A stretch of DNA of 64,000 nucleotides, from the NCBI RefSeq assembly GCF_900187885.1, contig NZ_FYEK01000027.1, forward strand, positions 273,630 to 337,629, in the 5' to 3' direction. Positions 10,264 to 44,312 of this stretch are shown here, in pieces; the first letter of the stretch is position 1, and each line of letters opens with the position of its first letter. A model generated the notes under the pieces. That model did no database searches, was not told the DNA's origin, and saw only the letters and a program-made list of their open reading frames with translations. Source of the stretch: Thermoflexus hugenholtzii JAD2 (GTDB lineage Bacteria; Chloroflexota; Anaerolineae; Thermoflexales; Thermoflexaceae). Position numbers and translations under genes: made by a program.

Positions 10264-10298
10264 GGACCGGCCCGGGAGGCGTCCGGCTTCCCCGGTCC
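10264..10298 (-). terminator. Hairpin downstream of Cys/Met enzyme gene
   Basis: GGACCGG (10264-10270) and CCGGTCC (10292-10298) form an inverted repeat just after the stop codon of the minus-strand PLP enzyme. No T-tract follows, so termination is uncertain. The rest of the 10084-10306 gap holds a second small hairpin (GCGAGG/CCTCGC near 10175) and a possible minus-strand TATACC at 10253. Confidence 0.4.
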
Positions 10299-10306
10299 AG
10301 AGCCTG

Positions 10307-11536: not shown

Positions 11537-11635
11537 CGCCGGCACCTCCTTTATCCGTTGCGGAAGAAGATGATGCGATCCTTCGACCACCTCTGAGACG
11601 GATGGGAGGAGCAAGGCGAGGCCTGTAGGGATAAC

Positions 11636-11664
11636 AAAAAGGCCCCTTCTGGGAAAAGGGGCCT
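11636..11664 (-). terminator. Rho-independent terminator of SAM riboswitch
   Basis: Read on the minus strand, AGGCCCCTT and AAGGGGCCT form a G+C-rich stem with a short loop, directly followed by TTTTT. It lies between the aptamer and the coding region, as in an expression platform that stops transcription when SAM is bound. Confidence 0.88.
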
Positions 11665-11678
11665 CGCGTCAGGCCACC

Positions 11679-11821
11679 CTTATCTCCCAGAAGCGCGGCG
11701 AACGCTTCTGCCGGACTTGGCACCTTACCCGCGCGGCCGTTCGCCGGTCGGCCGCCCGCTACGGCGGGCAGGTTGCCGGGGCTTCATCGGGCCGGGTCCC
11801 TCCACCCACTCTGGATAAGAG
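11679..11821 (-). ncRNA. SAM-I (S-box) riboswitch aptamer
   Basis: On the minus strand the conserved S-box elements occur in order. They are the P1 5' strand CTCTTATCCAGAG (11821-11809), GGTGGAGGGA, the GATGAAGCCCCGGCAACC block, GGTGCCAAGTCC, GCAG, and the P1 3' strand GGGAGATAAG (about 11688-11679). An intrinsic terminator and the Cys/Met PLP enzyme follow. High SAM is expected to favour termination. Confidence 0.95.
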
Positions 11822-11849
11822 CGGCACCCATATTCGGTTGTTTGGGATG

Positions 11850-11878
11850 ATTATAGCGAGGACCCTTCGCGAATGCAA
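11850..11878 (-). promoter_or_regulatory. Promoter of SAM riboswitch transcript
   Basis: On the minus strand TTGCAT (11873-11878) and a perfect TATAAT (11850-11855) are separated by 17 nt. Transcription would begin near 11843, about 20 nt before the aptamer. Confidence 0.8.
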
Positions 11879-11949
11879 ATCTCGTCCCTCTGGCCTCAGC
11901 GCCTTCCGGGCTCCGGAGAGGAAGCCGCGGCGCATAGAGGCCTGTGTGG

Positions 11950-11978
11950 TTGCTGCTACCGTTCAGCCTCGATATAAT
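11950..11978 (+). promoter_or_regulatory. Promoter of the 12-15.6 kb operon
   Basis: TTGCTG (11950-11955) and TATAAT (11973-11978) are 17 nt apart. The predicted start of transcription, near 11985, lies about 93 nt before the GTG at 12078. This excludes any upstream extension of the first gene. Region 11537-12077 contains only this promoter, the riboswitch, its terminator and its promoter. Confidence 0.75.
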
Positions 11979-12077
11979 CTTGTAGGATATCGGCGCTTCG
12001 ACTTGCAAATCACGGGGCGTCGCCCCCGGAGGAGCGCCGCATCGCAGGCTTCAAGGCGGATCTGTGAGGAGCAAGCG

Positions 12078-29295: not shown

Positions 29296-30399
29296 ATGCC
29301 GCGCACCGGGTTCGCGGATCTTCCGCTCCATACAGGCCGGGCGCCTCGCTGGCTCTTCGTCCGCATGACCGCCCTGGCCCGGGAGATCATCACCGTTCTG
29401 GTCGATGAGTTCGGGACGGCGGAGGTGCTCCGTCGCCTGAGCGACCCTTACTGGTTCCAGGCCTTCGGCTGCGTCTTGGGCTATGACTGGCACTCCAGCG
29501 GCCTCACCACGGTGGTCTGCGGGGCTTTGAAGGAAGCCCTGAAGGACGCCGGGCGGGAGCTGGGCCTGTTCGTGGCCGGAGGGAAGGGGAGGGCCTCGCG
29601 GCGCACGCCGGAGGAGATCGCGGCGGCCGCCGCGTACCTCCGAAGTGGCCCCGAAATCCTGATCCAGGCCAGCCGCATGGCGGCGAAGGTCGACAACCAC
29701 GCTCTCCAGGATGGCTATCAGATTTACCATCACGTGATGGTCTTCGATCGAGAGGGACGGTGGGCGGTGATCCAGCAGGGGATGAACCTGGAGAACCGCT
29801 ATGCGCGCCGGTATCACTGGCTGAGCGAGACAGTCGTGGATTTCGTGAACGAACCCCACGCCGCGGTCTGCTGTGATGAGCGGACCCGTCCCCTCAACAT
29901 GGTTGCAGCGGAGGCGGAGGCGGCCCGACATGCGGTGGCCGAGCTCTCCCGCGAGAAGCCCTGGCGGTTGCTTCAGGAGCTCCGGCGCCTGCAGCGCCTG
30001 CGTCTCCCGCCGCACCACGAGATCCTGCTCCGGGACATCCACCCGGATCATCTGGCCTCGATCTTCGTGAAGACCTATGAGGCGCAACCGGCTTCGTTCG
30101 CGGAGCTGCTCGGCCTCCCTCAGGTTGGCGCCAAGACCATCCGGGCCCTCGCTCTCCTGGCGGAGCTGCTCTACGGCACCCCCCTGTCGTTCCGGGACCC
30201 AGCCCGCTTCGCCTTCGCTCACGGGGGGAAGGATCGCCATCCATTCCCGGTAGACCGGGCCCTCTATGACCGTTCGATCCGGATCCTGCACGAGGCGGTG
30301 GCCCGGGCCCGGGTAGGGGATCGGGAACGCCTTGAAGCGTTGCGGCGCCTGGCCGAGTGGCAGCGTGCCCTCCTCCGGTCAGAACACCCGTCCCCATGA
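29296..30399 (+). CDS. DUF763 domain-containing protein
   Basis: 367-aa protein of family DUF763, found mainly in thermophilic archaea and bacteria and of unknown function. The start MPRTGFADLPLHTGRAPRWL is the family signature. Other conserved parts are VLGYDWHSSGLTTVVCGALKE, VDNHALQDGYQIYHHV and WAVIQQGMN. Near the C-terminus LLGLPQVGAKTIRALALLAE has the look of a helix-hairpin-helix, which would suit nucleic-acid binding. ATG 29296 has AAGGA 8 nt upstream. It follows rsmD closely on the same strand. Function cannot be assigned. Confidence 0.9.
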   Translation: MPRTGFADLPLHTGRAPRWLFVRMTALAREIITVLVDEFGTAEVLRRLSDPYWFQAFGCVLGYDWHSSGLTTVVCGALKEALKDAGRELGLFVAGGKGRASRRTPEEIAAAAAYLRSGPEILIQASRMAAKVDNHALQDGYQIYHHVMVFDREGRWAVIQQGMNLENRYARRYHWLSETVVDFVNEPHAAVCCDERTRPLNMVAAEAEAARHAVAELSREKPWRLLQELRRLQRLRLPPHHEILLRDIHPDHLASIFVKTYEAQPASFAELLGLPQVGAKTIRALALLAELLYGTPLSFRDPARFAFAHGGKDRHPFPVDRALYDRSIRILHEAVARARVGDRERLEALRRLAEWQRALLRSEHPSP

Positions 30400-30473
30400 C
30401 CCGAGGCGTGAAAAACCTCCCCGCCCCCTCAACCCGGCGAAGGATGAACCGATCCATTCGGACGAGGTGCGCG

Positions 30474-30827
30474 ATGTCCGGCCTGCTCCATTCGGTGCGG
30501 ATCCCCTTGCTCGTCTTGCTTTACCAGGTCCTGGTCGTGGTGGCCAACATCGGATTCAAGCGCTCCGCGGGGAGCACGACAGCGACCGCTTTCCTGGCCT
30601 GGCAGGCCCTGGGCAACTTGGCGGGTTTCCTGAGCGTCCTGACCTACACTGCGCTCCTTCGCTGGCTCCCGGTCCACGTCGCGGTGGGTCTCACAATGGG
30701 GCTGGGCTTCGCCAGCGTCCAGGTGTTCACCGCCTGGCTGATCTTTCACGAGCCCATCGGGTGGTCGAAATGGCTGGGGACCGTGCTGGTGGTGCTGGGA
30801 ATCACCTTGATCGCCGGGGGGCGCTGA
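30474..30827 (+). CDS. Half-size EamA/SMR-like membrane protein
   Basis: 117-aa protein with four hydrophobic segments: LLVLLYQVLVVVANIGFK; AWQALGNLAGFLSVLTYTAL; VAVGLTMGLGFASVQVFTAW; and LGTVLVVLGITLIAGG. This is the layout of small multidrug resistance or half-size EamA transporters, which work as dimers. The conserved membrane Glu14 of EmrE-type exporters is not evident, so drug export is unproven. ATG 30474 is chosen because GAGGTG lies 4 nt upstream and the first helix begins soon after. The next gene starts 3 nt after its stop. Confidence 0.8.
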   Translation: MSGLLHSVRIPLLVLLYQVLVVVANIGFKRSAGSTTATAFLAWQALGNLAGFLSVLTYTALLRWLPVHVAVGLTMGLGFASVQVFTAWLIFHEPIGWSKWLGTVLVVLGITLIAGGR

Positions 30828-30830
30828 ACC

Positions 30831-31475
30831 ATGCAGACCGTGATGGAGGCCTTCGTCCACCAGCTGGATCCTCTTCTGCGGCGCGCGCATGGCGTTCGGG
30901 AGTTCACCGATGACCCTCGGTGTCTGCTCCGGGTGGCCATCGGCGCATGTCCGCGTGACCTCGTGCTTTGCGATGGCACCCGGCTTCGCCGAGGAGAGCC
31001 TATCCTTGAGCTCCATCTGTGGAACGAGAGGATCCCCCGCATGCCCCCGGAGGGTCCGGATCTGGCTTGGGGTCTGCAGTTCTACCGGCAGGCCATCGCC
31101 TCCCTCCGGTTGATCGCGCGGTGGATGGAGAGCCATCCGGAGGCCCGGAAGGCCCGGGCGCTCCGAGGGGAGACCTCGCTGATCAATCCCATGCGAGGGC
31201 TGATCCGCGACCTGGGCTTTGAGGTGTTTCGGGTGGAACGGGGGGCGAGCGGCTGGCGATGGCTCCGCTATCGGATGGATGATCTTTACGTGTGGATGCT
31301 GATGCAGGCTTACAACCCCGCCAGCCTGCGCGGCAAGTGCCTGTATCAGCTGGAACGGGTGGAGTTCTGGATCTCCCGTGAGCGCTTCCTGGAGCGCTAC
31401 GGGAATGCGCATTCTTTGAGAGGAGAAGCCCGCATCTCTCCTCCTCCGCCTGAGGGGACGCAGGCTGCGTCCTGA
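30831..31475 (+). CDS. YkoP-like domain protein
   Basis: 214-aa soluble protein. The stretch LVLCDGTRLRRGEPILELHLWNERIPRMP matches by eye the core of the YkoP-like domain (DGTxLxxGDxVxELHxxNE), seen alone or with polysaccharide deacetylases. Later parts include GFEVFRVERG and a Trp/Tyr-rich helix. No signal peptide is seen. It is 3 nt after the transporter-like gene and probably cotranscribed. It is convergent with the GT39-like gene. The assignment is by motif memory and is moderate. Confidence 0.65.
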   Translation: MQTVMEAFVHQLDPLLRRAHGVREFTDDPRCLLRVAIGACPRDLVLCDGTRLRRGEPILELHLWNERIPRMPPEGPDLAWGLQFYRQAIASLRLIARWMESHPEARKARALRGETSLINPMRGLIRDLGFEVFRVERGASGWRWLRYRMDDLYVWMLMQAYNPASLRGKCLYQLERVEFWISRERFLERYGNAHSLRGEARISPPPPEGTQAAS

Positions 31476-31510
31476 GCGTTGAACCGGAAGTGGGAGCGGG
31501 GCCCTTGCCG

Positions 31511-34303
31511 CTATGGCGCCGCAGGCCCATGAATGCGCACGGGCAGAAGGATGTGGTCGCTTCCGTCCTCCGCCCGCAAGCGCTGCATGGTCTCGGGGTC
31601 ATACATCACGATGATGAGGCGGCCCTCCCCGCGCAGGGGCTCCCGGAAGGTCACCGGATGCGGATCCTCGATGAACTCCCCGAAGACCCATGAGGTGGTG
31701 GGGGAGCGTCCGTCCGCCGGCGGCCGGTCGTCCTGGCCGATCAGGCGTCCCTCGGCGTTCAGGGCCTGCACCGAGACCACGTAGGGACGCTCGATGGGCG
31801 TTTCGTTCAGCGCCCGCCAGACCAGCTTCACGGTGAGGCTTTCCCCCTCCTGTGGGGTGGTCCGATCCAGGGTGACCCCCACCAGCTCCGCGACGCCGGG
31901 GAACCGACGGCCCACCGGGATGTCGAAGGGCGGGGCCTCGAACCGGCGCGGGCGCCCGGCGATCTCCACCGTGCCCAGCGAGAAGGAGGCCCCCTCTCCC
32001 CAGCGCAAGCGCACTTCGGCTTTCCCCGCCGTCGCCTCGGGGGAGACCCAGAGCGTGCGACGGTCCAGCACAGGCAGGCCCGGGATCCACCGGGAGACCG
32101 GATAGCGGCCGTAGCCTGGATCTCCTTGCTGTCGCCCAAGGATCTCCCCTCCTCGTAGGAGCTCCAGGGTCAGCGGTCGATCCGGCAGGCCGGGGTGTGT
32201 GGCTCGGAGCAGAAGCGATGCATGGAGGGGCTCCCCCGGCGCCACGGCGGAGGTGGAAAGCCGGAAGCCCAGCAGCTCCAGGCCGTCCCCCAGGGGAACT
32301 GGGGCGGGGAGCTGAGGGATCCCCGACATGGTGCCGTAGGGGTCCACCTGCATCCGGGGCGGATCCACCTGGATGGCGCCCAGGACGAGGCTCCGCCCTC
32401 CCGGATTGCGGGCCTCGTCTAGGATGTCCAGCCCTTTGAGATCCGGCTCTCGATATAGGGTGACAGTGAGGGTGTAGGGCCCGGGCGGCGCGCCCAGCGG
32501 GATCGGGACCACGAAATACGTGGTGGTCTCCTCGCCGGGGGTCCAGCGCGCGGTGTAGCGGTGGAGGTCATTCATCAGCATCCAGTCCATCCCGCTGACG
32601 CGTTGCCGGCCGGCGTCCAGGAGGCTGACCGCCGCCTTCAGGTTCTCGGAGATCGGAGCCGGCATGCGCCAGCGGAGGGCGACGGCGATCCCCTCGCCGG
32701 CATGTCCCTCTGTTTCGTAGAAGACGCCGGACAGAAGCAAGCGATCCCCGAAGTTCACCGCCGCCGGCTGCAGCGGCGGCATCGCCACCGGGCGCTCCAG
32801 CTCATACACCCAGAGGGTGTATCCCGGGAACTCCCGGTGATCGATCAGCCGCCCGGCTCGTTCCAGAAGGAAGGGGATGAAGCGCTTGTCGTCGGTCACC
32901 GAGCGGAACCAATGCAGGAGGAAGACGCGCCGTTTGCCGGCGGTGATCGCCTGGAGCTCCGCCAGCCCCTCCGCCTCCCGCCCCCGCATCTTGATCCCCT
33001 GGATGGGGGAAGGCCCTGCGTAATATTGTTGCAGCGTATATTCCTCTGAGTCCACCACGATGGCGTCATCCGGGGTTGTCACCCCGGTGAGATAAGCGGC
33101 CACCCCCCGCACGTCCTCCCGGAAGAAGGCGGGGTCATAGTAGACGATCCACAGCCCCTGGAGGAAGGTGGCGCCGATGGCCACGGCGAGGGCCAGCGCG
33201 AGGAGACGAGTGGGCCCACGTCGGAGGCCCTGCGCCCGCCAGAGATCCACCATCAGGAAGGCGTCGGTGAGCAGCAGCGCCGGTGTGAGCATTAGGATGT
33301 AGCGAGGGTGGACGATGGGCTTCCAGCGGGTGATGCCGAAGACCAGCAGGAGCGGCACCGCAAAGGCGGCCAGCCACAGCGCCGGGGCGGCGGGGACGCG
33401 GCGGAGGTCCCGCCGCCGGCTCCAGAGGGCCAGCGCCAGGGCCCCGGCGAAGGCGAGCCCATAAGCTGCGGAGGCCCCGACGAAGCCGGGGCGGGGGGGC
33501 GGCTCACCGGTCTTCCCGAGCACCTCCCGGATGCCGATGTTGAAGAAGTGCCAGGTGAGGGAGAGGAACTCGGGCAGCGTGGGGAACGTGGCCCGCTCAT
33601 CGCTGTGCTGGCCGGTCTGGCGGTAGGCGGGCGGGAGCCAGGGGGCGTAAGCCAGCACCACCAGCGCCTGGGCCAGCGCCCAGCGTCGGAGATTCCATCG
33701 ACGATCTTCGATGGGTTGGCGCAGGAGCAGGAGAAGGGCGGTCAGGTTCAGGAAGGCCACCGCGACCACCGAGAAGTAGTGGGTATACATCATGGCGGCC
33801 TCTGCCACCCCGATGGCGGCGAGGGTCGAAGCCGGCCAGCGCCGGGTCTTCATCAGGCGGGCCAGCAGGAGGAGGGCGATGAGATATTCCAGGGCGAAGA
33901 GGGTATACATCCGGGTTTCCTGGGAGTAATACACATAAGCGGGGGCCAGGACGGCCAGGCCGGCGGCGAGCAACCCCACGGCGCGCCCGGCTCCCTCCCG
34001 GCCCGCCCGGTAGAGCAGGGGAAGGATCAGGATGCCGAAGATCGTGGAAAGAAAGCGGGTGGTGAACTCGGTGTATCCCGTGAAAGATCCCCATAGGGAA
34101 AGCAACAAGTAATAAAGCGGGGGATGGATATCCACCGCGGTCATGCGGATGGCGGTGAGGAAGCCGTGGCGGGCCAGATAGGTGCTATAGCCCTCGTCCC
34201 ACCACCAGCTCTGGACGGCGATGCGGTGCAGCCGCAAGGCGAAGGCCATCAGGATCAACCCCAGCAGAAGGATCCAAACCCCTATCCGGCGGCTTAAGGA
34301 CAT
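31511..34303 (-). CDS. GT39-type membrane glycosyltransferase with long extracytoplasmic tail
   Basis: 930-aa protein. The N-terminal half has about 11 membrane segments and the GT-C hallmark acidic loop WWWDEGYSTYLARHG, followed by AVDIHPPLYYLLL, as in ArnT/PMT-like GT39 enzymes that use polyprenyl-phosphate sugars. The C-terminal 450 residues are beta-rich and repetitive (ALRWRMPAPISENLKAAVSL and VTLDRTTPQEGESLTVKLVW are two similar segments), probably extracytoplasmic carbohydrate-binding-like domains. ATG 34303 is chosen because GGGAGGAG lies 7 nt upstream. It is divergent from the first response regulator. Confidence 0.87.
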   Translation of the reverse strand: MSLSRRIGVWILLLGLILMAFALRLHRIAVQSWWWDEGYSTYLARHGFLTAIRMTAVDIHPPLYYLLLSLWGSFTGYTEFTTRFLSTIFGILILPLLYRAGREGAGRAVGLLAAGLAVLAPAYVYYSQETRMYTLFALEYLIALLLLARLMKTRRWPASTLAAIGVAEAAMMYTHYFSVVAVAFLNLTALLLLLRQPIEDRRWNLRRWALAQALVVLAYAPWLPPAYRQTGQHSDERATFPTLPEFLSLTWHFFNIGIREVLGKTGEPPPRPGFVGASAAYGLAFAGALALALWSRRRDLRRVPAAPALWLAAFAVPLLLVFGITRWKPIVHPRYILMLTPALLLTDAFLMVDLWRAQGLRRGPTRLLALALAVAIGATFLQGLWIVYYDPAFFREDVRGVAAYLTGVTTPDDAIVVDSEEYTLQQYYAGPSPIQGIKMRGREAEGLAELQAITAGKRRVFLLHWFRSVTDDKRFIPFLLERAGRLIDHREFPGYTLWVYELERPVAMPPLQPAAVNFGDRLLLSGVFYETEGHAGEGIAVALRWRMPAPISENLKAAVSLLDAGRQRVSGMDWMLMNDLHRYTARWTPGEETTTYFVVPIPLGAPPGPYTLTVTLYREPDLKGLDILDEARNPGGRSLVLGAIQVDPPRMQVDPYGTMSGIPQLPAPVPLGDGLELLGFRLSTSAVAPGEPLHASLLLRATHPGLPDRPLTLELLRGGEILGRQQGDPGYGRYPVSRWIPGLPVLDRRTLWVSPEATAGKAEVRLRWGEGASFSLGTVEIAGRPRRFEAPPFDIPVGRRFPGVAELVGVTLDRTTPQEGESLTVKLVWRALNETPIERPYVVSVQALNAEGRLIGQDDRPPADGRSPTTSWVFGEFIEDPHPVTFREPLRGEGRLIIVMYDPETMQRLRAEDGSDHILLPVRIHGPAAP

Positions 34304-34567
34304 CCCGACGCTCCTCCCAGGGTCCATCGGAGTCCGAAGCCCGAGCAGGCCCCTGCCGGCCCGGGCTCCGGCCAGGGATCCCATGGTAAGCGGGATCGCC
34401 CCCTCCGGCGAACCGACCAGGGGGGACGAAAGTCCTATATCCAGAGTGGCGATCCTCCTCTATACTCAACTCAAAATAATTGGCGCTCGGGGTGAGCCAT
34501 GAAGGGATCCGGATGGTTCTTATCTTCAATGCCCGATATGCAGACCGCAAAGAGAGGGGATCTCCCG

Positions 34568-35257
34568 ATGTCTCCTACTTTGTTGGTAATCGATGACGAT
34601 CGGGAATTCATCGATCTGCTCCGCAAGCGCCTGGAAGGGGCCGGATATCGGATTCTGGCGGCCCTGGATGGAGAGACAGGGCTGCGGATGCTGGAGTCGG
34701 AACGACCGGATTTGGTGATCCTGGACATCATGATGCCGGGGATGGACGGCTATGAGGTCTGCCGGCGGATCCGCCAGGTCTCCGAGGTCCCGATCCTCAT
34801 GCTGACGGCCAAGGGGATGACCCCGGATGTGGTCCGAGGCCTGGAGGTGGGAGCGGACGATTATGTGACCAAACCCTATGAAACAGATGTGCTACTGGCC
34901 CGCATCCGGGCCCTCCTGAGAAGAGCCCAGCGCCAGCCGCCGCCGGAGCAGGGGGTTTACCGGTGCGGGGAGATCGTGCTGGACCTGGATCAACATACCG
35001 TGACGGTGGCCGGGCGCCCCGTATCGCTCACCCCCCTGGAGTTCCGGTTGTTGAGCGTGATGATGCGCAACCCCGGGCGTCTGCTCCCCCACCGTTATCT
35101 CCTCACCCAGGTTTGGGGCCCTGAATACGCGGAGGATGTGGACAACCTCAAACTGTATATTCACTATCTCCGTCAGAAAATCGAGCCAGATCCTCGTCAC
35201 CCTCGTTACATCCTCACAGAGTGGGGGATCGGTTACCGGTTTCAATGTGAAGGATGA
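34568..35257 (+). CDS. OmpR/PhoB-family response regulator
   Basis: 229-aa two-component regulator. The receiver domain has Asp9-Asp10-Asp11, phospho-acceptor Asp53 (VILDIMMPGMDGYEV), Thr in MLTAKG and Lys in YVTKPY, all intact. A winged-helix DNA-binding domain follows (LTPLEFRLLSVMMRNPGRLL ... VDNLKLYIHYLRQKIEPDP ... GIGYRF). ATG 34568 is used, with AGAGAGGGG upstream; upstream in-frame ATGs at 34544 and 34499 exist. No histidine kinase is adjacent, so it is an orphan in this window. It is the first plus-strand gene before the polysaccharide cluster. Confidence 0.95.
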   Translation: MSPTLLVIDDDREFIDLLRKRLEGAGYRILAALDGETGLRMLESERPDLVILDIMMPGMDGYEVCRRIRQVSEVPILMLTAKGMTPDVVRGLEVGADDYVTKPYETDVLLARIRALLRRAQRQPPPEQGVYRCGEIVLDLDQHTVTVAGRPVSLTPLEFRLLSVMMRNPGRLLPHRYLLTQVWGPEYAEDVDNLKLYIHYLRQKIEPDPRHPRYILTEWGIGYRFQCEG

Positions 35258-35551
35258 GCGCTTCATGATCTAAAATCCCGCTCCTCCTTCGAGGGCCTGG
35301 GAGAGACCTCCGGCGGCCTCCCCGGTCTTCTATTCCTCTCCAAAGTTCGGCAGCATATCCCGCAACGTCGATCCGTCCAGCTTGCCCCCTCGCCGATGCC
35401 GCCTTCCAAATGAATTCAAACGAAAATCTCCACCTTTTCCAACTTCTGTTGGGTAAAGTGTGAGAGGAAGAGGAAGAGACGGGGCGGTCCTGGGGGTGGG
35501 ACATGGTCCGGTTCTCCCTGGGTTCCCAAGATAGAAGGGGAGGGATAGGCG
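35258..35551 (+). other. Intergenic region between response regulators
   Basis: 294 nt with no coding signal. It holds a small inverted repeat CCAAC-TTCT-GTTGG at 35439-35452 in a locally A+T-richer stretch. This could be an operator or promoter region for the second regulator and the polysaccharide genes. No convincing -35/-10 pair was found. Confidence 0.4.
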
Positions 35552-36337
35552 ATGGTGAATGGGACGCGAAAGGAGCCGGCGAGAGGGGGTTTCAACGGCG
35601 ATGCGGCGCTGCGGGTTCTGGTGGTGGACCCCAGTCCGGAGATGCGGCAGCTGCTTCAGCAGGCGTTGAGTGCGGAACCGATGCAGGTGTATGTGGCTTC
35701 CGGGCCTACGGAGGCCCTGGCCATGCTCCCAGTGGTGACCCCCCATCTCATCCTCACCGAGCTCGTCTTTCCAGATCATGACGGCTTCCGTTTCTGTCAG
35801 CAGCTGCGAGCAGCCACCTCCAGCCCCATCCTCGTGATCTCCGCAGCCCGCTCGAATCAGGACATTGTGCGGGCCTTCGATATGGGAGCGGACGATTTCA
35901 TCCCCAAGCCCTTCGCCCTGATCGAGCTGCAGGCCCGCATGCAAGCCCATCTGCGCCGTCAGGCCTGGCAGGGGCATCAGCGGGCGCTGACCTACTATGC
36001 GGACGATCATCTGGTTATCGATCTCAACCTGCAGGAGGTGAGGGTTCGGGGGCAGCGGGTTCGTCTCTCCCGTATTGAATACCGGTTGCTGGCCTGCCTG
36101 CTTCAGCACGCCGGTCGCGTGGTCCGCCATGAGACTCTGCTCCAGGCGGGCTGGGAAGATCAGGGATGGGATCCTCATTATCTAAAGCTGTATATCCGTC
36201 ATCTGCGGAACAAGATCGAGCCGGATCCCTCCCGCCCCCGATACATTGTGACGGTGTGGGGCGTGGGCTACCGCTTCTGCCCGCATCCCTCAAAGGCTTC
36301 CTCACAACCCCAGGACTTCCAGGAGGTTGAGCCATGA
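35552..36337 (+). CDS. Atypical OmpR-family response regulator (Asp to Glu receiver)
   Basis: 261-aa protein with receiver and OmpR-type winged-helix domain. In the receiver the phospho-acceptor position is Glu70 (LILTELVFPDHDG) instead of Asp, and the second residue of the acidic pair is Pro27 (VVDPSPEM). Ser in ISAA and Lys in IPKPF remain. Glu at the acceptor site often mimics phosphorylation, so this regulator may be constitutively active and independent of a kinase. The DNA-binding domain is intact (LSRIEYRLLACLLQ ... HYLKLYIRHLRNKIEPDP ... VGYRF). It overlaps the epimerase gene by 4 nt (ATGA), tying it to the polysaccharide operon. Confidence 0.93.
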   Translation: MVNGTRKEPARGGFNGDAALRVLVVDPSPEMRQLLQQALSAEPMQVYVASGPTEALAMLPVVTPHLILTELVFPDHDGFRFCQQLRAATSSPILVISAARSNQDIVRAFDMGADDFIPKPFALIELQARMQAHLRRQAWQGHQRALTYYADDHLVIDLNLQEVRVRGQRVRLSRIEYRLLACLLQHAGRVVRHETLLQAGWEDQGWDPHYLKLYIRHLRNKIEPDPSRPRYIVTVWGVGYRFCPHPSKASSQPQDFQEVEP

Positions 36338-37254
36338 AATGTCTGGTCACGGGCGGGGCGGGCTTCATCGGCTCCCATGTGGTGGACGCGCTGATCGCCG
36401 ATGGGCATGAAGTCGTGGTGGTGGACAATCTGAGCACGGGCCGGCGGGAGAACTTGAATCCGCGGGCGCGCTTCTATGAGATCGACATCCGCAGCCCGTC
36501 CCTGGCGGAGGTGTTCGAGCGCGAGCGCCCGGAAGTGGTCAATCATCACGCGGCCCAGATGAGCGTGCGGATCTCCATGGCGGATCCCATGTATGACGCG
36601 GACGTGAACGTGCTGGGCTCGCTCAACCTGATCCGCCTCTCCCTGCAGTATGGGGTGAAAAAGTTCATCTACATCTCCAGCGGGGGTGCGGTCTACGGGG
36701 AGCCGGTCTACCTACCCTGCGACGAGGATCACCCGATCCGTCCGCTCTGCCCGTATGGGGTCACCAAATTCATCGTGGAGCAATACCTGGCGCTGTTCCA
36801 TCACCATTATGGGCTGCGCTATACCGTCCTGCGCTACCCGAACGTGTATGGCCCCCGACAGGATCCGGAGGGGGAGGCCGGGGTGGTGGCCATCTTCATC
36901 GGGAGGATGTTGCGGGACGAGCCGGTGGTGATCAACGGCACGGGCGAGCAGATGCGGGATTTCGTGTATGTGGAGGATGTGGTGGAAGCGAACCGGATGG
37001 CCCTGGAGAACGGGGATGCGGAGGTTTTCAACCTGGGGAGCGGGCGGGGGACCACGGTGAACGAGATCTTCCAGATGTTGGCGGCCATCACCGGCTACCG
37101 CCGGGAGCCGATCTATGGCCCGCCGAAACCCGGGGAGACCTTCCGCATCTATCTGAGCGCGGAGCGGGTAAAGCGGGCTTGGAGCTGGCGCCCGCGGGTG
37201 GACTTGGAGGAGGGGCTGGAGCGGACCGTAGCCTTCTTCCGGGCTCGGCGGTGA
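36334..37254 (+). CDS. NAD-dependent nucleotide-sugar epimerase
   Basis: Extended short-chain dehydrogenase, 306 aa, of the UDP-glucose 4-epimerase type. The Rossmann motif is TGGAGFIGSH at residues 6-15, NLSTG follows, and catalytic residues are in SSGGAVYGEP and YGVTKFIVEQY (YxxxK). VLRYPNVYGPRQDPEGEAGV and MRDFVYVEDV are typical of GalE-like enzymes. It would supply a UDP-hexose (for example UDP-galactose) for the polysaccharide made by the downstream genes. Exact epimerisation is not decided by sequence. It overlaps the atypical regulator upstream and precedes the chain-length/kinase gene by 12 nt. Confidence 0.92.
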   Translation: MKCLVTGGAGFIGSHVVDALIADGHEVVVVDNLSTGRRENLNPRARFYEIDIRSPSLAEVFERERPEVVNHHAAQMSVRISMADPMYDADVNVLGSLNLIRLSLQYGVKKFIYISSGGAVYGEPVYLPCDEDHPIRPLCPYGVTKFIVEQYLALFHHHYGLRYTVLRYPNVYGPRQDPEGEAGVVAIFIGRMLRDEPVVINGTGEQMRDFVYVEDVVEANRMALENGDAEVFNLGSGRGTTVNEIFQMLAAITGYRREPIYGPPKPGETFRIYLSAERVKRAWSWRPRVDLEEGLERTVAFFRARR

Positions 37255-37266
37255 GGGGAGCCTCCC

Positions 37267-39318
37267 ATGGAGCGTTTGCAACCCTATCTGGATGCCCTCC
37301 GCCGCTGGTGGTGGTTCCCGGTGCTGTGCGCCCTCTTGGCCGGGCTGGGCGGCTATTTCTACACCCGGCAGCAGCGACCGGTCTACGCCGCGCGGGTCAC
37401 CCTGATGGTGGGCTCCAGCCTGATGAATCCCAGTCCGGACCCCCAGGAGATCGGCCTCAGCCGGACCCTGGCCCAGATCTATGGGGAGATGGCCCGGCGC
37501 CGGCCGGTGCTGGAGCAGACCATCCGGCGGCTCAACCTGACCCTCTCGCCGGATGCCCTGGCCCGGGCGGTGGAGACCCGCGTGGTGTTCAACGCCTCGC
37601 TCCTGGAGATCTACATCTACGACTTCGACCCCGAACGGGCGGCAGCGCTGGCCAACGCCCTGGCGCAAACCTTGATGGAGCAGGCGCCGGGGGCGCGGAC
37701 GGCGGCGGATGAGCAGTTCCTGCAGGCGCAGCTGAACGACATTCAGAAGAAAATCGAGGACACTGATCGGAAGATCCAGGAGCTGCGCCAGCAGATGGCC
37801 CGGATGACTTCGGCGGCGGAGCTCCGGGAGGCCCAGGATCAGCTCCAGGCCCTGGAGCAGCTGAAGCGCGACTACCAACAGACCTACGCCCAGCTGATCG
37901 GGGTGATGAACCAGGGTCGGGTGAACACCCTGCGGGTGCTGGAGCCCGCGCTTCCGCCCTCCCGACCGGTCTCCCCCAGCCTGTTGCGGAACCTGATGCT
38001 TTCCAGTGGGGTGGGGTTGGTCCTCAGCCTTAGCGTGTTGATGACCCTGGAGCTGTTGATGGGCCGGGCAGTGCAGTGGGATGGGGGCCTGACCATGTTC
38101 AACCTCCCCGTCCTGGGTGCCATCCCCCACTGGCGCAATCGGAAGGACCCGCTCGTCGTCCGCAGCGCCCCGGATTCCCCGGACGCCGAGAGTATCCGCT
38201 CCCTGCGCCTCCGGGTCCTCCAGCTGCTGGGGCGGGAGGGACCCCGGACGGTGCTGGTCACCAGCCCGACGCCGGAGGACGGCAAGTCTTTCGTGGCCAG
38301 CAACCTGGCGGCGGCCCTGGCCGAGGCCGGTGTGCGCACAGTCCTGGTGGAGGCGGATCTCCGCGGGGGAACGGTGGCTCATCTCTCCCCTCAGGAGATC
38401 TCCCACGGGCTGGTGGATTATCTGGAGGCCGAAGGGGAGGGGCTTCGCCTGGAGGATCTCCTGATCCCCATCGATGGCGGCCTCACGATCCTCCCGATGG
38501 GACGGATCCCGCGGGATCCCGGGTGGTTGCTGAGCTCGCCCCGCTGGCGGGCGATGCTGAGGCAACTGCAAGAACGTTATGAGATGGTGGTCCTGGATGG
38601 GCCGCCGACGCTGTTCACAGCCGAGCTGGAGCTCCTGGCCCGGGCGGCGGATGGGATCCTCTTGGTGGTTCGGGATGGGGAAACCCCGCGCCGGATGGTT
38701 GGGCAGGCCCGTTACGTCCTCCGCGGCCAGCGGATCCTGGGCCTGGTCGTCAACGATGTCCCCCGGCGGAAGCTCGGCCAGCGCTATGGTTACGCATATG
38801 GTTACGGGTATGGCTATGGCCGCTATCGGAAGCGCGCAGAAGCCCGAGGGCTCGCCTATGGGATCCGGGGCTGGTGGGCGCGGCGGCAGGCTCGCCCGGC
38901 CAAGACGGCAGCCTGGGAGAAGCCGGCCCCATCGCCGGCATCGCCCGAGCCGCCGGCCGGTTCTCTCGAGACGCCTTCCAGGCCGCTCTTTCCGCCTCCT
39001 GTCTTGATGCCCGGCCCGGCGTCAGAGCCGCCGGCTCCATCTGCTGCGGAGGAGGTCCTTCCGATGGAACGTGAGGAAGCGCGCGGGCCCTTCCTGGGCC
39101 TCCGGCCGGAGGAGCTGGAAGGAGTTTTCCTGGAGGAGGAGACCGCCCCGGCAGCGGAGGTAGAGCCTGTGAAGGCAAAGGCCGCCGCCATGCCTTTCGT
39201 CGATGTGGATCCGGAGCTGTTGCAGGAGCTCCTCGACGGACCGGCGGAGGAAACATCCGTGGCGCTTGCGACGTCGCAGGAGCCGGAAGAGGAGGGAAAA
39301 GAGGGTGAGGCCGGATGA
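37267..39318 (+). CDS. Wzz-BY-kinase (polysaccharide chain-length and export regulator)
   Basis: 683-aa bacterial tyrosine kinase of the Wzc/CapB type. The N-terminal Wzz domain is flanked by membrane segments near residues 17-35 and 240-260, with a coiled coil between (DIQKKIEDTDRKIQELRQQM). The kinase has Walker A TPEDGKS near 335, Walker A' VLVEADLR and Walker B VVLDGPPT. A cluster of seven tyrosines near residues 507-520 (RYGYAYGYGYGYGRY) is the usual autophosphorylation tail. Unusually, about 170 further residues follow, Pro-rich then strongly acidic. It likely cycles with polymerisation and export of the exopolysaccharide. It overlaps the flippase gene by 4 nt. Confidence 0.93.
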   Translation: MERLQPYLDALRRWWWFPVLCALLAGLGGYFYTRQQRPVYAARVTLMVGSSLMNPSPDPQEIGLSRTLAQIYGEMARRRPVLEQTIRRLNLTLSPDALARAVETRVVFNASLLEIYIYDFDPERAAALANALAQTLMEQAPGARTAADEQFLQAQLNDIQKKIEDTDRKIQELRQQMARMTSAAELREAQDQLQALEQLKRDYQQTYAQLIGVMNQGRVNTLRVLEPALPPSRPVSPSLLRNLMLSSGVGLVLSLSVLMTLELLMGRAVQWDGGLTMFNLPVLGAIPHWRNRKDPLVVRSAPDSPDAESIRSLRLRVLQLLGREGPRTVLVTSPTPEDGKSFVASNLAAALAEAGVRTVLVEADLRGGTVAHLSPQEISHGLVDYLEAEGEGLRLEDLLIPIDGGLTILPMGRIPRDPGWLLSSPRWRAMLRQLQERYEMVVLDGPPTLFTAELELLARAADGILLVVRDGETPRRMVGQARYVLRGQRILGLVVNDVPRRKLGQRYGYAYGYGYGYGRYRKRAEARGLAYGIRGWWARRQARPAKTAAWEKPAPSPASPEPPAGSLETPSRPLFPPPVLMPGPASEPPAPSAAEEVLPMEREEARGPFLGLRPEELEGVFLEEETAPAAEVEPVKAKAAAMPFVDVDPELLQELLDGPAEETSVALATSQEPEEEGKEGEAG

Positions 39319-40760
39319 CCGGGATGGCACGGGTGGTGCTCCGCAACACGCTGTTCTCCCTGCTCGGGCGCCTGACGGTGAAGGCCCTCGCCTTCGCCTT
39401 CTCGGTGTGGGTGGTGCGGCGCCTGGGGCAGGAGGCTTTCGGCCAGTATGCTACGGCCCTGGCTTATGTGACGGCCTTCGCGATCTTCTCCGACTGGGGG
39501 CTGGCCCCTTATCTGGTGCGGGAGATCGCTCGGGATCGGGGCCGCGTGGGGGTGCTGGTAGGGAACGCGGTGGCCCTCCGCTTCCTGCTCTCCATCGGGA
39601 CCATCGGGTTGATCCTGGGCGTGGCCCGCTGGAACGGGCAGCCTCCGGTGTTGCTCGGGGGGATCGCCCTGGCGGCCCTCTCGCTGGTGCTGTATGCCTT
39701 CCAGGGTCCTCTGGAGGCAGCGCTCCAGGGGATCCGCCGGCTGGATATCGTCTCGGCCGCAGGGGTGTTGCAGCAGCTGATCTTCGTCGGGCTGGGGACG
39801 CTGGCTTTGTGGAAGGGATGGGGGTTTTACGGCCTGATCGGGGCCTCCCTGATCGGGACCATGGGAGCGTTGCTGCTCTCTTGGGGAATGAGCCGTTCCC
39901 TGGGCCTTCTCGCCCTGGAGCGTCCGGAGTGGCGATGGTGGCCCGCTCTGTTGCGGGCGGGGTTGCCTTTCGGCCTCATCGGCCTGGCGGTCAATCTCTC
40001 TTACAAAGTGGATACGATCCTGCTCAGCCTGTGGTGGCCAGCGGGGGTGGTCGGCTGGTATAACGCAGCGTATAACCTAATCTTCTCCATCGCGATCCTC
40101 TCCAACGCGGCGAACCTGGCCCTCTATCCCTCCATGGCCGCCCTTCGGGATCATGAGGCCCTGGCCATGGTGGTACGACGCTCCCTGGGTTACCTGTGGA
40201 TGATCTCCATTCCCTTCGCCGTGGGGGGCTGGGTACTGGGGGATCGGCTGATCCCAGGTCTCTACGGGCCCTCTTTTGTCCCCTCGGTCCCGGCCTTTCG
40301 CGTTCTGATCGGCGTTGTCCCGCTGATGTTCCTTTCGGAGTATCTGGGCTACGTGATCCTGGTGCGGGATCGCGAGTGGATGGTGGCCCGCTCTCTGATC
40401 CTAAGCACGTCATTCAACATCCTGACGAACTTCCTGCTCATCCCGCGCTACGGGTTGATGGCCGCCGCGTGGGTCACGCTGCTCACGGAGGCCCTCCTGG
40501 TGGGCCAGTATGGATTCCTCCTCCGGCTGTGGCGGGGGGTGATGGCGGATTGGAGGCTCTTCGTCAAACCGGCCCTGGCCGCGGCGGGGATGAGCTTGGC
40601 CCTGGAGGTCGCACGGGGGCTCCCCCTGGGGGCGCTGTTGCCTCTTGGCGCCCTGGTGTATGGCCTGGCCCTGTGGGGCCTGGGCGCCCTCGGCCCTGCG
40701 GAATGGCATCTGCTGCGTCAGATGATCCATCGAACTCCTGTGGCCGGCGAGGTGGGATAA
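39315..40760 (+). CDS. Oligosaccharide flippase (Wzx/MATE-type)
   Basis: 481-aa polytopic protein with 12-14 membrane segments, of the polysaccharide biosynthesis/flippase family that moves lipid-linked repeat units across the membrane. The start VVLRNTLFSLLGRLTVKALAFAFSVWVVRRLG, read in part as NTLFSLLGRLTVK and VVRRLGQEAFGQYA, is a family hallmark. So is the later YKVDTILLSLWWPAGVVGWYN. Its ATG overlaps the stop of the BY-kinase gene. It is a distant paralogue of the flippase half of the fused protein at 3453. Confidence 0.93.
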   Translation: MTGMARVVLRNTLFSLLGRLTVKALAFAFSVWVVRRLGQEAFGQYATALAYVTAFAIFSDWGLAPYLVREIARDRGRVGVLVGNAVALRFLLSIGTIGLILGVARWNGQPPVLLGGIALAALSLVLYAFQGPLEAALQGIRRLDIVSAAGVLQQLIFVGLGTLALWKGWGFYGLIGASLIGTMGALLLSWGMSRSLGLLALERPEWRWWPALLRAGLPFGLIGLAVNLSYKVDTILLSLWWPAGVVGWYNAAYNLIFSIAILSNAANLALYPSMAALRDHEALAMVVRRSLGYLWMISIPFAVGGWVLGDRLIPGLYGPSFVPSVPAFRVLIGVVPLMFLSEYLGYVILVRDREWMVARSLILSTSFNILTNFLLIPRYGLMAAAWVTLLTEALLVGQYGFLLRLWRGVMADWRLFVKPALAAAGMSLALEVARGLPLGALLPLGALVYGLALWGLGALGPAEWHLLRQMIHRTPVAGEVG

Positions 40761-40763
40761 GCC

Positions 40764-42170
40764 ATGTTCATCGTCCTGGCCGCGCCGCACTATCCTCCAC
40801 GCAACATCGGCGGGGTGGAGTTCTTCGTCCAGGCCCTCGCCCGCGGGCTCCACCGACAGGGGCACCGGGTGGAGGTGGTCAGCGTGGAGCGCATCGAGCA
40901 CGGCCCTTTCCCCCGGGTCACCGCCCAGGTGGATCGGGAGGAGGGGTTCCCGGTGTATCGCCTGACGGTGCGCTGGCGGAAGGGCCCGGCGGGCCTGCGG
41001 GATCGTTACGACAACCCGGCGATGGAGCTGTGGTTCCGGGCGTATTTCCACAGCCGTAGCCCGGATGTCTTCCACTTGAACAGCGGCTATCTGCTGACGG
41101 TTGCGCCGTTGCGGGCGGCGGCCCGGGCCGGGATCCCTACTGTGGTCTCGTTGCACGATTTCTGGTTCCTTTGCGCCCATCACACTCTGTTGCGGCCCAG
41201 CGGGCAGGTCTGCCCGGGGCCGGAGGATCCGGCCGGTTGCGCCTACTGCTGGCTCAGTCAGGGCCGGCGCTACCGGTGGATGGAAAAGGCCCTGGCCGCG
41301 CTGGGCGTGGAGCGCCCCCATCGGAAGGCCGGGTGCCTTCTGCGCCCATGGCCGTTCTTCCGTTCATGGGCCCAGGAGATGGCGGCGCGCCTGCGCGCCA
41401 CGATGTCTGCGCTGAATCAGGCGACCGTGATCCACAGTCCCTCCCGGTTTCTGGTTCAGACCTATCGGACCTTTGGGATGCGTGCGGAGAGGGTTTCCGT
41501 CATCCTGAATTTTGTCCCCCCCGATCTGAGCTTGGGTGTTCCTTGCCGGGAGCGAGAAGACGCGCATGAGGTGCACGTGGTGTATATCGGACAGATCGCC
41601 CCGCACAAGGGAATCCATGTTCTGATCGAGGGGGTGCGGCGGGCGAAAGCCCGGCTGGGGGTGGCGGGCGATCGCGCGTTGCGGCTGACGATCTATGGGA
41701 ACCCTCATGCGTTCCCTGCGTATTCGAGGCTTTTGGAGCAACGGATCGCGGGGGATCCGGCCATCCGGCTGGCGGGGGTCCTCCCTCGGGAGCGGCTGGG
41801 GGAGGCCCTGGCGGAGGCGGACTGGTTGGCCCTGCCCTCCATCTGGCCGGAGATCACCGGCATCGTTGCCCTGGAAGCCCTGGCCGCTGGGGTCCCTGTC
41901 TTGGCCAGCGCGGTAGGGGGCATCCCCGAGGTGGTCCATCACGGGGTCAACGGATGGCTGATCCCTCCTGGCGATCCAGAGGCGATCGCGCAGGCGCTGA
42001 TCCGATCCGTCCGGGAACCGGAGTGGCTGGAGCAGCTGCGCGCGCATACGGGACCCGTTTTCTCCTTTGAACAGGCGATGTCTGCCTGGATCTCGCTATA
42101 TGCGGAGATCGCAGGGAGAGCCCAGACGCCTGAGGTGCTCCAGGAAGCCGCCCTCCATGAATCCACTTGA
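40764..42170 (+). CDS. Glycosyltransferase family 4
   Basis: 468-aa cytoplasmic GT-B glycosyltransferase. The N-terminal domain starts with the acceptor loop YPPRNIGGVEFFVQALARGL. A Cys-rich insertion (WFLCAHHTLLRPSGQVCPGP...CAYC) lies near residue 135. The donor-binding domain has VVYIGQIAPHKGIHVLIEG and the EX7E motif in PEITGIVALEALAAG, followed by GGIPEVVHHGVNGWL. Probably transfers a sugar from a nucleotide donor to the growing lipid-linked repeat unit. It is 3 nt after the flippase and overlaps the next gene by 14 nt. Confidence 0.92.
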   Translation: MFIVLAAPHYPPRNIGGVEFFVQALARGLHRQGHRVEVVSVERIEHGPFPRVTAQVDREEGFPVYRLTVRWRKGPAGLRDRYDNPAMELWFRAYFHSRSPDVFHLNSGYLLTVAPLRAAARAGIPTVVSLHDFWFLCAHHTLLRPSGQVCPGPEDPAGCAYCWLSQGRRYRWMEKALAALGVERPHRKAGCLLRPWPFFRSWAQEMAARLRATMSALNQATVIHSPSRFLVQTYRTFGMRAERVSVILNFVPPDLSLGVPCREREDAHEVHVVYIGQIAPHKGIHVLIEGVRRAKARLGVAGDRALRLTIYGNPHAFPAYSRLLEQRIAGDPAIRLAGVLPRERLGEALAEADWLALPSIWPEITGIVALEALAAGVPVLASAVGGIPEVVHHGVNGWLIPPGDPEAIAQALIRSVREPEWLEQLRAHTGPVFSFEQAMSAWISLYAEIAGRAQTPEVLQEAALHEST

Positions 42171-43128
42171 GGCAGATGCGGTGGGAGGCATCCTCGTTGC
42201 CGTTCTGACCTATAACCGCCTGCATGACACCTTGGCCTGTTTGGAATCCGTGCGGCGGCTGGAGGGCCCGGTGGAGGCCATCGTGGCTCTGGACAACGGC
42301 TCGACGGATGGGACGCCGGAGGCCATCCGCCGGGCGTTCCCCGAGGTCGAGGTATGGGAGCTGGGCGGCAACCTGGGCTACGCGGCTGGGAACAACCTGG
42401 CCCTCCGCGTTGCACAACAGCAGGGGATGGAAGGTGTGTTCCTGTTGAACAACGACACGCTGGTAGATCCCATGTGCCTGGTCGCGCTGCTGGAGGCCGC
42501 GCGCGCATTGCCCCGGGTGGGAGCAGTGGGGCCCTTGGTGTGGGCGTGGCCGCCCTCCCAGGGGATCTGGGCCCTGGGTGGGGAGATCCACTGGCGGCGG
42601 GCCTACACCACGCATCGAGAGGCAGGGCGCGCGGCACCCTCGCAGTGGGAACCTCATCCGGTGGATTTTGTCCCTGGATGCGGGATCCTATTGCTGCGGG
42701 AAGCCCTGGAAACGGTGGGCGGGTTCGATGAACGTTACTTTATGTATTGGGAGGAAACGGACTGGTGTCAGCGGGCCCGGCGCGCAGGCTTCTCGATCTG
42801 GGTGGATCCCCGGGCGCAGATGTGGCACAAGGCCCCGATGGATCCTGATGACCTTTCCGCGGGCGCGCTCTATTACATGACCCGCAATCGCATGCTCTTC
42901 TTCCGGGAGCACACCCAGGGCGTGCGGCGGTGGCTGGCCCTCGCCCACGCTTTCCACGGTGCGATCCGGCTGGCGCGGCGCTACGAACGGGGGGATCAGC
43001 CGGAGCGGGCGCAGGCGATCTGGGAAGGGCTACATGATTTCCTCCATGGGAGGTGGGGACCCCGGGAGGCTGAGGCTCCGGTGGGAAGGATGGGAAAGGA
43101 GGTCGCATGGCCCGCATCCTCTGGGTGA
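42157..43128 (+). CDS. Glycosyltransferase family 2 (rhamnosyltransferase-like)
   Basis: 323-aa GT-A glycosyltransferase. LVAVLTYNRLHDTLACLESV, the ALDNGSTDGTPEAI nucleotide-sugar site, NLGYAAGNNLALR and the DxD-like LLNNDTLVDP are all present, as is the YWEETDWCQRARRAG motif near the active-site lid. This pattern is common in rhamnosyl- and related transferases. ATG 42157 is used because the domain begins right after it; an in-frame ATG at 42067 would lie deep inside the previous gene. It overlaps its neighbours on both sides. Confidence 0.92.
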   Translation: MNPLEADAVGGILVAVLTYNRLHDTLACLESVRRLEGPVEAIVALDNGSTDGTPEAIRRAFPEVEVWELGGNLGYAAGNNLALRVAQQQGMEGVFLLNNDTLVDPMCLVALLEAARALPRVGAVGPLVWAWPPSQGIWALGGEIHWRRAYTTHREAGRAAPSQWEPHPVDFVPGCGILLLREALETVGGFDERYFMYWEETDWCQRARRAGFSIWVDPRAQMWHKAPMDPDDLSAGALYYMTRNRMLFFREHTQGVRRWLALAHAFHGAIRLARRYERGDQPERAQAIWEGLHDFLHGRWGPREAEAPVGRMGKEVAWPASSG

Positions 43129-44312
43129 TGGGCTGGTTCCCCCTGCCGCCGGATAAGGGGGTGCGGATCCGGCTGTCGCAGCTGCTCGACACGCTGGCGG
43201 CGCATCACCGATTGACCCTGGTGGTGCTGGCTGATCCTGAGGCGGAGGTGGAGCGCTACCAGGGGGATCTGGCGGCCCGTTGTGAGGCCCTCTTCGTGTT
43301 CCGTCGCCCCGAGTTCCGGCCGACCCGATGGCGGGCGATCCGCGGCTTCTTCTCTCCCACCCCCCGCTGGCTGGTGGACGTGGAGCAGCCCGAGGTCCAC
43401 GCCCGGGTGCGTCAGCTCTGTCAGGAGCGGACCTTCGATCTGATCCTGGCCTCCCAGCTGCCTTCGGCCATGTATGTCCGCGCGCTGGAAGGCGTCCCCA
43501 AGATCCTCGATGAGGTGGAGAGCGGGCTCTTCCTGGACCAAGTGCGCATGGCCTCGGATCTGATTCGGCGGGCACGGCGGGCGATGATGTGGTGGAAGTA
43601 TGCGCGCTTCATGAGGGGCCTGCTGGCCGCTTTCGATGCCTGCACGGTGGTTTCCGAGGAGGAGGCGCAGATCCTCCAACGGATCGCCCCATGGGCGCGG
43701 GTGGCCGTGATCCCTAATGGGATCGATCTGGAGCGCTACGCGGGGGTGGAGGAGATCCCGGAGCCGGACACACTGATCTTCACCGGGGCGCCGACTTATT
43801 GGGCGAACCGGGACGCCCTGGTGTTCTTCGCGGAGGCGATGTGGCCGGAGATCCGCCGGCGGCGCCCGGGCGTGCGTTTCTTCATCACCGGCCGGACCCC
43901 GGAGGGGGTAGCCCTTCCCCGACCGCCTGGGTGGGTCTACACCGGCTACGTGGAGGATGTGCGGCCCTGGGTGGCCCGGGCCTGGGCACTGGTCGTGCCG
44001 TTGCGGTTCGGCGGGGGGACGCGGGTGAAGATCCTGGAGGCGATGGCCCTGGGGACGCCCGTGGTTTCCACCCGCAAAGGAGCCGAAGGGCTTGAGTTTC
44101 CGCATCCAGAAGCCCTCATCGTTGCGGACACGCCGAATGGATTCGTCCGGGAGGTCTTGGCCTTGCTGGAGGATCCGGAGCGGCGGGCGCGACAGAGTCG
44201 CCTGGTTCGGGAGGCCGTCCGTGCCTATGACTGGCGGTCCCTCGGGGATCGTTACCTGCAGCTAGTGGAGGACGTGATCGGTGAACGGGCTGGCCTTGTT
44301 GCGCGCCATTGA
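43107..44312 (+). CDS. Glycosyltransferase family 4
   Basis: 401-aa GT-B glycosyltransferase. The N-terminus reads ILWVMGWFPLPPDKGVRIRL, where the PLPPDKG loop is typical of sugar transferases of exopolysaccharide clusters. The C-terminal domain has LIFTGAPTYWANRDALVFF, TGYVEDVRPWVARAWALVVP and RFGGGTRVKILEAMALGTPVV. Acceptor and donor are unknown. The gene overlaps the preceding GT2 by 22 nt and the following O-antigen ligase gene by 32 nt, which supports a single long operon. The last gene of the cluster, at 54349, is a similar enzyme. Confidence 0.92.
   Translation: MARILWVMGWFPLPPDKGVRIRLSQLLDTLAAHHRLTLVVLADPEAEVERYQGDLAARCEALFVFRRPEFRPTRWRAIRGFFSPTPRWLVDVEQPEVHARVRQLCQERTFDLILASQLPSAMYVRALEGVPKILDEVESGLFLDQVRMASDLIRRARRAMMWWKYARFMRGLLAAFDACTVVSEEEAQILQRIAPWARVAVIPNGIDLERYAGVEEIPEPDTLIFTGAPTYWANRDALVFFAEAMWPEIRRRRPGVRFFITGRTPEGVALPRPPGWVYTGYVEDVRPWVARAWALVVPLRFGGGTRVKILEAMALGTPVVSTRKGAEGLEFPHPEALIVADTPNGFVREVLALLEDPERRARQSRLVREAVRAYDWRSLGDRYLQLVEDVIGERAGLVARH

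Follow-up and report, generated by a model that had tools for sequence, protein, structure and literature searches.

What does a response regulator do when its receiver carries glutamate at the phospho-acceptor position and its gene stands at the head of a set of polysaccharide genes? A gene of this kind, here termed RR2, lies in a 64,000-nucleotide stretch of DNA from Thermoflexus hugenholtzii JAD2 (the whole stretch is termed the window), next to a second regulator gene, RR1. A reading of the window made without database searches (the sequence-only reading) had proposed that the glutamate makes RR2 constitutively active and that RR2 controls the polysaccharide genes, perhaps in competition with RR1. 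We follow up that proposal with domain searches, structure prediction, orthologue alignments, a tree and comparison of the locus among genomes. The features that matter here are these:

31511-34384, minus strand: GT39 (the name used here), a divergent membrane glycosyltransferase-like protein (PMT_2, 44.0 bits; cut-off 26.1)
34423-34438, no strand assigned: near-palindrome GGGACGAAAGTCCTAT between GT39 and RR1, from aligned upstream regions
34568-35257, plus strand: RR1, a canonical OmpR-type response regulator with no kinase alongside (Pfam)
35413-35461, plus strand: island B, a conserved block and probable operator/promoter of the RR2-polysaccharide operon (alignment, pattern search)
35552-36337, plus strand: RR2, a pseudo-receiver regulator of OmpR/KdpE type (translation, Pfam, alignment, tree, AlphaFold2 model)
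35627-35632, plus strand: codons of Asp26, retained, and Pro27, where the second Mg-binding acid is lost (alignment)
35759-35761, plus strand: codon of Glu70 at the phospho-acceptor position, GAG in six of six genomes (alignment)
35906-35908, plus strand: codon of Lys119, the conserved receiver lysine, present in six of six genomes (alignment)
36334-37254, plus strand: NAD-dependent sugar epimerase/dehydratase (Epimerase, 217.8 bits)
37267-39318, plus strand: Wzc-like chain-length/tyrosine-kinase-type protein (TIGR01005 and Wzz, both below cut-off)
39315-40760, plus strand: Wzx-like flippase (Polysacc_synt, 96.9 bits)
40764-42170, 42067-43128 and 43107-44312, plus strand: three glycosyltransferases (Glyco_trans_1_4 and Glycos_transf_2, above cut-off)
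44281-45714, plus strand: Wzy/O-antigen-ligase-like polymerase (Wzy_C, 50.3 bits; cut-off 31.7)
45417-48110, plus strand: long open reading frame (ORF) with a family-2 glycosyltransferase domain (Glycos_transf_2, 92.6 bits)

RR2 is a protein of 261 amino acids in which Response_reg (80.0 bits, residues 22-130) is followed by Trans_reg_C (80.6 bits, residues 167-242), both well above their Pfam cut-offs; this is the OmpR/PhoB-type order of receiver and winged helix. The key receiver residues, their columns checked by alignment, are Asp26, Pro27, Glu70, Ser97, Phe116 and Lys119. Glu70 occupies the phospho-acceptor position and Pro27 replaces the second Mg-binding acid, while Asp26, Ser97, Lys119 and the DNA-binding domain are retained. 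Translation, Pfam domains and alignment columns thus bear out the two substitutions and the intact DNA-binding domain that the sequence-only reading had named. Without a phosphorylatable Asp at the end of beta3, RR2 falls outside the canonical response regulators; with a receiver that is recognised at 80 bits and catalytic residues that are missing (Glu70, Pro or Ser at position 27), it belongs with the aspartate-less regulators or pseudo-receivers.

The receiver fold appears in the predicted structure, where block means of pLDDT are 88-97 over residues 21-130. The AlphaFold2 model as a whole (mean pLDDT 82.2, pTM 0.53) has two well-formed domains, whose relative placement is unreliable at these values. 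In the model Glu70 directly follows strand 66-69, Ser97 ends strand 93-97 and Lys119 directly follows strand 115-118; Foldseek places the receiver 1.2-1.3 Å from that of KdpE (1zh2). RR2 also carries a scaffold for coupling: Ser97 at the T position, Phe116 at K-3, Ala98 at T+1, Pro74 at D+4, Gly78 at D+8, and Lys119. The names of these positions and their meaning are from PMC12632262. At K+2 RR2 has Phe121; a Phe at this position in CheY biases toward inactive conformations (PMC12632262) and, by analogy, would argue mildly against a built-in active bias of RR2.

An intact copy of RR2 was found in six Thermoflexus genomes, designated G000-G005, of which G000 is the genome of the window, which spans 273630-337629 of contig C27. 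Two pairs are close (G000 and G004 are 98% alike, G002 and G005 nearly identical), so that the six amount to some four independent lineages; the contigs of loci L021-L024 are those already present in G003, G001, G002 and G005 and were counted once. Glu70, Ser97, Phe116, Lys119 and Asp26 are present in all six aligned orthologues. Five have Pro at position 27 and the sixth has Ser, the second acid being lost in every case. Orthologues with Asp at the acceptor site in the same context, which the sequence-only reading had named as evidence that would count against it, number none of six in the alignment, and the occurrence in six genomes rules out chance or sequencing error as the cause of Glu70. 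All 68 other sequences in our tree have Asp at the site, two of them odd and partly degenerate (L134_817 and L141_742).

The tree holds 74 sequences, drawn from the best-scoring loci and not a random sample; 78 loci were read, and 92 ORFs passed the coverage filter before duplicates were removed. In it the six RR2 sequences form a single clade (support 100/100, with a bootstrap that had not converged), whose stem has a length of 1.78 changes per column and which has no resolved sister group. A recent tandem duplication of RR1 as the origin of RR2 is unsupported, given their identity of 36-39% and their separate clades, though the RR2 stem is long and its deep placement in the tree uncertain. 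We also built a profile from the six orthologues and ran it against 396 Anaerolineae genomes, scoring six candidates per genome. The orthologues themselves score 522-555 bits; the best score in the 387 genomes outside Thermoflexus is 205 bits, and the search found no RR2 orthologue there. Within the genus an orthologue is absent from G006 and G008, and G007 holds a remnant only. RR2 is genus-specific within the genomes searched.

Rates of substitution were compared in six pairs from four genomes. dN/dS is 0.089-0.193 for the RR2 receiver, 0.014-0.053 for the RR2 DNA-binding domain, 0.024-0.088 for the RR1 receiver and 0.032-0.067 for the epimerase, all of them rough ratios since dS approaches or exceeds 1 in many comparisons. 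Mean identity is 0.772 for the RR2 receiver against 0.921 for that of RR1. As judged from these sequences, constraint on the RR2 receiver appears relaxed relative to the RR1 receiver, yet real.

Is RR2 tied to the polysaccharide genes, as the sequence-only reading had it? The order RR1, RR2, epimerase, Wzc-like gene is found in every genome that has RR2, and RR1, RR2 and the Wzc-like gene are absent together from G006, G007 and G008, in the sense that none of these has an orthologue of RR1 or of the Wzc-like gene or an intact orthologue of RR2; both observations support the link. The Wzx-like, glycosyltransferase and Wzy-like genes come next in five genomes, the contig of G002 ending inside the Wzc-like gene. 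GT39 lies beside RR1 on the same contig in five of the six (G003 has it on a separate contig, C388). The epimerase is 91-97% identical in the other five loci. The Wzc-like protein scores 122 bits with TIGR01005 (cut-off 411.7) and 22.3 bits with Wzz, just below the cut-off of 25.5; by eye, it has a RYGYAYGYGYGYGRYRKR run beyond the kinase-like part, a possible tyrosine cluster, and a long tail rich in Pro and Glu.

The genomes without the pair are drafts, with completeness of 84% (G006), 76% (G007) and 90% (G008), so that for G006 and G008 the joint absence may be missing sequence; this does not hold for G007, where the locus itself is on a contig (L071, about 9412-13400) and is decayed. There the GT39 ORF is 924 amino acids long and 80.5% identical over 915, RR1 is missing, RR2 is reduced to a DNA-binding part with an internal stop, and the epimerase is cut, with the first 135 of 306 residues left. 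The polysaccharide operon, RR1 and RR2 included, seems to persist or disappear as one unit. RR2 is apparently the first gene of a surface-sugar operon, whose membership we infer from the spacing of the genes.

The junction of RR2 with the epimerase gene is less uniform than the gene order. The 4-nt overlap seen in the sequence-only reading is real (36334-36337), but translational coupling through it is certain in two loci of six, possible in two more and absent from the last two. The two certain cases, where the overlap involves the homologous epimerase start, are G000 and its 98% relative G004. In G002 and G005 the homologous ATG lies 185 nt beyond RR2, but a further in-frame ATG upstream of it shares 4 nt with the RR2 stop; a start there would lengthen the epimerase by 63 codons. 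The gap to the homologous start is 163 nt in G001 and 79 nt in G003, and neither has an overlapping in-frame ATG. Overlap coupling as a general feature is therefore unsupported. There is no conserved block between RR2 and the epimerase start in the four genomes without the homologous overlap, and a simple scan of the window and of loci L070 and L066 found no terminators or promoters between the two genes on the RR2 strand. In L066, terminator-like stems occur there on the opposite strand.

RR1, the neighbour of RR2 in six of six genomes, is a canonical, chemically intact regulator (Response_reg 111.6 bits, Trans_reg_C 84.8 bits; search run on 34499-35257), and its start ATG at 34568 has a counterpart in all six. 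None of the 32 HATPase_c matches of the genome falls in the 64-kb window; the nearest on the contig, at C27:269850-270104, is about 38 kb from RR1. Judged by position, both regulators are orphans, which leaves room for a distant kinase acting on RR1.

Control DNA was sought by alignment in the interval between RR1 and RR2. Four divergent genomes agree in 26 of 30 columns of its island B, whereas over the interval as a whole 29% of ungapped columns are identical. A 27-letter pattern of the block, allowing up to three mismatches, was found exactly once per genome in the five RR2 genomes searched; G008 and the controls gave no hit. A possible -10 element, GGGTAAAGTGT at 35451-35461, follows; it is our own reading and has no support from a scan: a consensus search found no sigma-70-like promoter in 34380-37300 or in the corresponding parts of L070 and L066. 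The lack of a sigma-70 consensus match would be consistent with a promoter that depends on an activator, though it is no proof of one. Island B also holds a direct repeat of TTCAAAC with 22 bp spacing (35415-35443), exact in G001, G003 and G005; the second copy in the window is TTCCAAC, with one mismatch. These repeats are candidate half-sites for an OmpR-type regulator, a suggestive assignment only.

An operator shared by the regions upstream of RR1 and RR2 was considered and rejected. The best 14-base matches between the two intergenic regions are no better than those of shuffled sequences, being reached by 26 of 300 shuffles in G005, 57 in G001, 114 in G000 and 160 in G003. A pattern built on the shared match occurs only in the block before RR2, in three of six genomes.

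Several known regulators provide comparisons. CmrR and CmrT of Clostridioides difficile (PMC12548384) are, like RR1 and RR2, two OmpR-family regulators encoded together, and CmrT resembles RR2 in having Glu at the acceptor site, in having lost the second Mg-binding acid and in keeping the T/S residue and the Lys. The arrangement of canonical and Glu-type genes in CmrRST, adjacent and inherited together, recurs in all six Thermoflexus genomes. CmrRST differs in that it includes CmrS as a partner and is under an elaborate control region, which contains a c-di-GMP riboswitch as well as an invertible element; the Thermoflexus pair has no histidine kinase gene in its operon (no HATPase_c in the window) and, unlike CmrRST, precedes polysaccharide genes. 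RR2 moreover lacks the Asp that follows the acid pair in CmrT, having Ser28 instead. The likeness of RR2 to CmrT, drawn from residue pattern and gene arrangement, may be convergent.

Mutations in CmrT are instructive as to which residues count. The E53A change left motility near wild type and caused no substantial two-hybrid change, while D9A and K102A reduced both motility and dimerisation (by two-hybrid); all changes, E53A included, were statistically significant for motility (PMC12548384). By analogy, the invariant Asp26 and Lys119 may matter more in RR2 than Glu70 does.

More widely, RR2 shares an Asp-less receiver fold joined to a DNA-binding domain with ChxR, HP1043, RitR, BldM and WhiI (PMC4395418, PMC12632262). 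Aspartate-less receivers of OmpR type comprised 609 sequences, 2% of that architecture (PMC4395418), and RR2 retains Ser at the T position and Phe at K-3, as do 47% of pseudo-receivers (PMC12632262). KdpE is the best NCBIfam and PDB match of RR2, but the score with the KdpE equivalog is 166.1 bits, short of its cut-off of 325; KdpE has the acidic pair and the Asp that RR2 lacks in the alignment, and RR2, unlike KdpE, is set among polysaccharide genes. Among the literature matches listed, judged by title and opening of the abstract, no publication treats this RR1-RR2 locus, and we found none joining pseudo-receivers and Chloroflexota. RR2 is a fresh example of an already known class of aspartate-less regulators rather than a new type of system. 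What sets it apart is that, at the head of an operon, it is consistently paired with an orphan regulator of canonical type.

On balance we favour, with modest confidence, a reading of RR2 as a phosphorylation-independent pseudo-receiver regulator whose level is set by transcription of the operon and which works with the orphan RR1. From the residues present, the usual phosphorylation would be impossible, while receiver and winged helix are predicted still to fold; RR2 would probably dimerise and bind DNA without phosphorylation. The loss of phosphorylation chemistry together with the retention of coupling from pocket to dimer face would fit a protein in or near its DNA-binding form. Since RR2 comes first after a promoter-like block and the polysaccharide genes follow it, its amount should track expression of the operon, and its activity would be determined by expression and not by a kinase. 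Any signal-dependent step would most likely come from RR1, acting at the block before RR2, at the RR1 upstream region or at both, with RR2 as a putative feedback partner of RR1. Operon membership, DNA binding and dimerisation of RR2, its target, the direction of regulation and phosphate mimicry by Glu70 are all matters that we infer.

It is possible, if doubtful, that the sequence-only reading is right in its stronger form, with Glu70 reaching Ser97 and Lys119 and holding the active state, such that RR2 drives the polysaccharide genes whenever it is made and competes with RR1. Retention of Glu70, Ser97, Phe116 and Lys119 in all six genomes agrees with this, as do reports that a D-to-E change can yield phosphate-independent activity and that Glu is the commonest replacement, at 26% of aspartate-less receivers (PMC4395418). 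The idea of constitutive activity through Glu70 is nonetheless weakened: D-to-E alone is often insufficient, ChxR still bound DNA after its Glu was changed to Asp or Ala (both PMC4395418), and CmrT E53A, for all its statistical significance in motility, had little effect (PMC12548384). Phe at K+2 does not favour the active state, and since the Glu70 codon is GAG in all six genomes there are no silent changes by which selection at this position could show directly. As for competition, cooperation between RR1 and RR2 or a heterodimer of the two is as likely. RR2 might act chiefly as a partner of RR1, joined to it at the alpha4-beta5-alpha5 face and altering the DNA choice or activity of RR1, a tentative reading that we rank level with a locked-on RR2. 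The two genes adjoin in six of six genomes and are both missing in three of three others, and Asp114, Asp115, Glu125 and Arg129, which we take to lie on that face, are invariant in RR2; RR1, however, has Val at the position of Glu125. CmrR and CmrT pulled each other down and their pairing was proposed, but heterodimers were not seen in that paper's two-hybrid assays (PMC12548384); BldM/WhiI heterodimers have been described (PMC12632262).

Two further readings are less probable. An input of another kind might gate RR2, either a ligand that the sugar pathway supplies or phosphorylation on Ser/Tyr, with the Wzc-like protein as the candidate kinase; alternative modifications of aspartate-less receivers have been discussed (PMC4395418) and the Wzc-like gene lies within the operon, and we consider this quite improbable. 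That RR2 is a degenerating pseudo-regulator with little function left is very unlikely indeed: its receiver evolves faster than that of RR1 (the mean identities given above) and only a remnant is left in G007, but dN/dS is far below 1 in both of its domains, it is intact in all six genomes that keep the operon, and the G007 remnant accompanies a cut epimerase and the absence of a Wzc-like orthologue. Also unlikely, in our view, is a kinase-free circuit built on an RR1/RR2 heterodimer whose ratio follows from the place of RR2 as the first operon gene; such a circuit would let the operon limit itself or behave as bistable, would need no dedicated sensor kinase and might take an input from the Wzc-like protein.

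How pseudo-receivers are switched on and off has been called a mystery (PMC12632262). RR2 is a clean natural case, with one clade, Glu fixed in six copies and a canonical partner adjoining; its candidate operator is unique, and among its relatives G007 shows the system in a decayed state. Thermoflexus is a thermophile, so its proteins may be stable and easy to handle in biochemical work.

The region between GT39 and RR1 has a conserved element of its own. AGGAC or GGGAC, then GAAA, then GTCCTAT, is present in six of six aligned upstream regions of RR1; the palindrome TAGGAC-GAAA-GTCCTA is exact in four, the left arm being GGGGAC in the window and in G004. It is reminiscent of boxes of DosR/NarL type. 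A search of 30000-40000 found no Rfam family. When the palindrome was searched with a free centre, 15 of 17 places had TTTS or SAAA there, and a reversed control pattern had more hits in every genome, so that the count of palindromes alone is not significant. By eye, a copy in L107 (G000) lies about 170 nt past the end of a thioredoxin reductase-like ORF, and copies in L110 (G005) and L109 (G008) each have a glycosyltransferase-like ORF on one side and a divergent ORF on the other.
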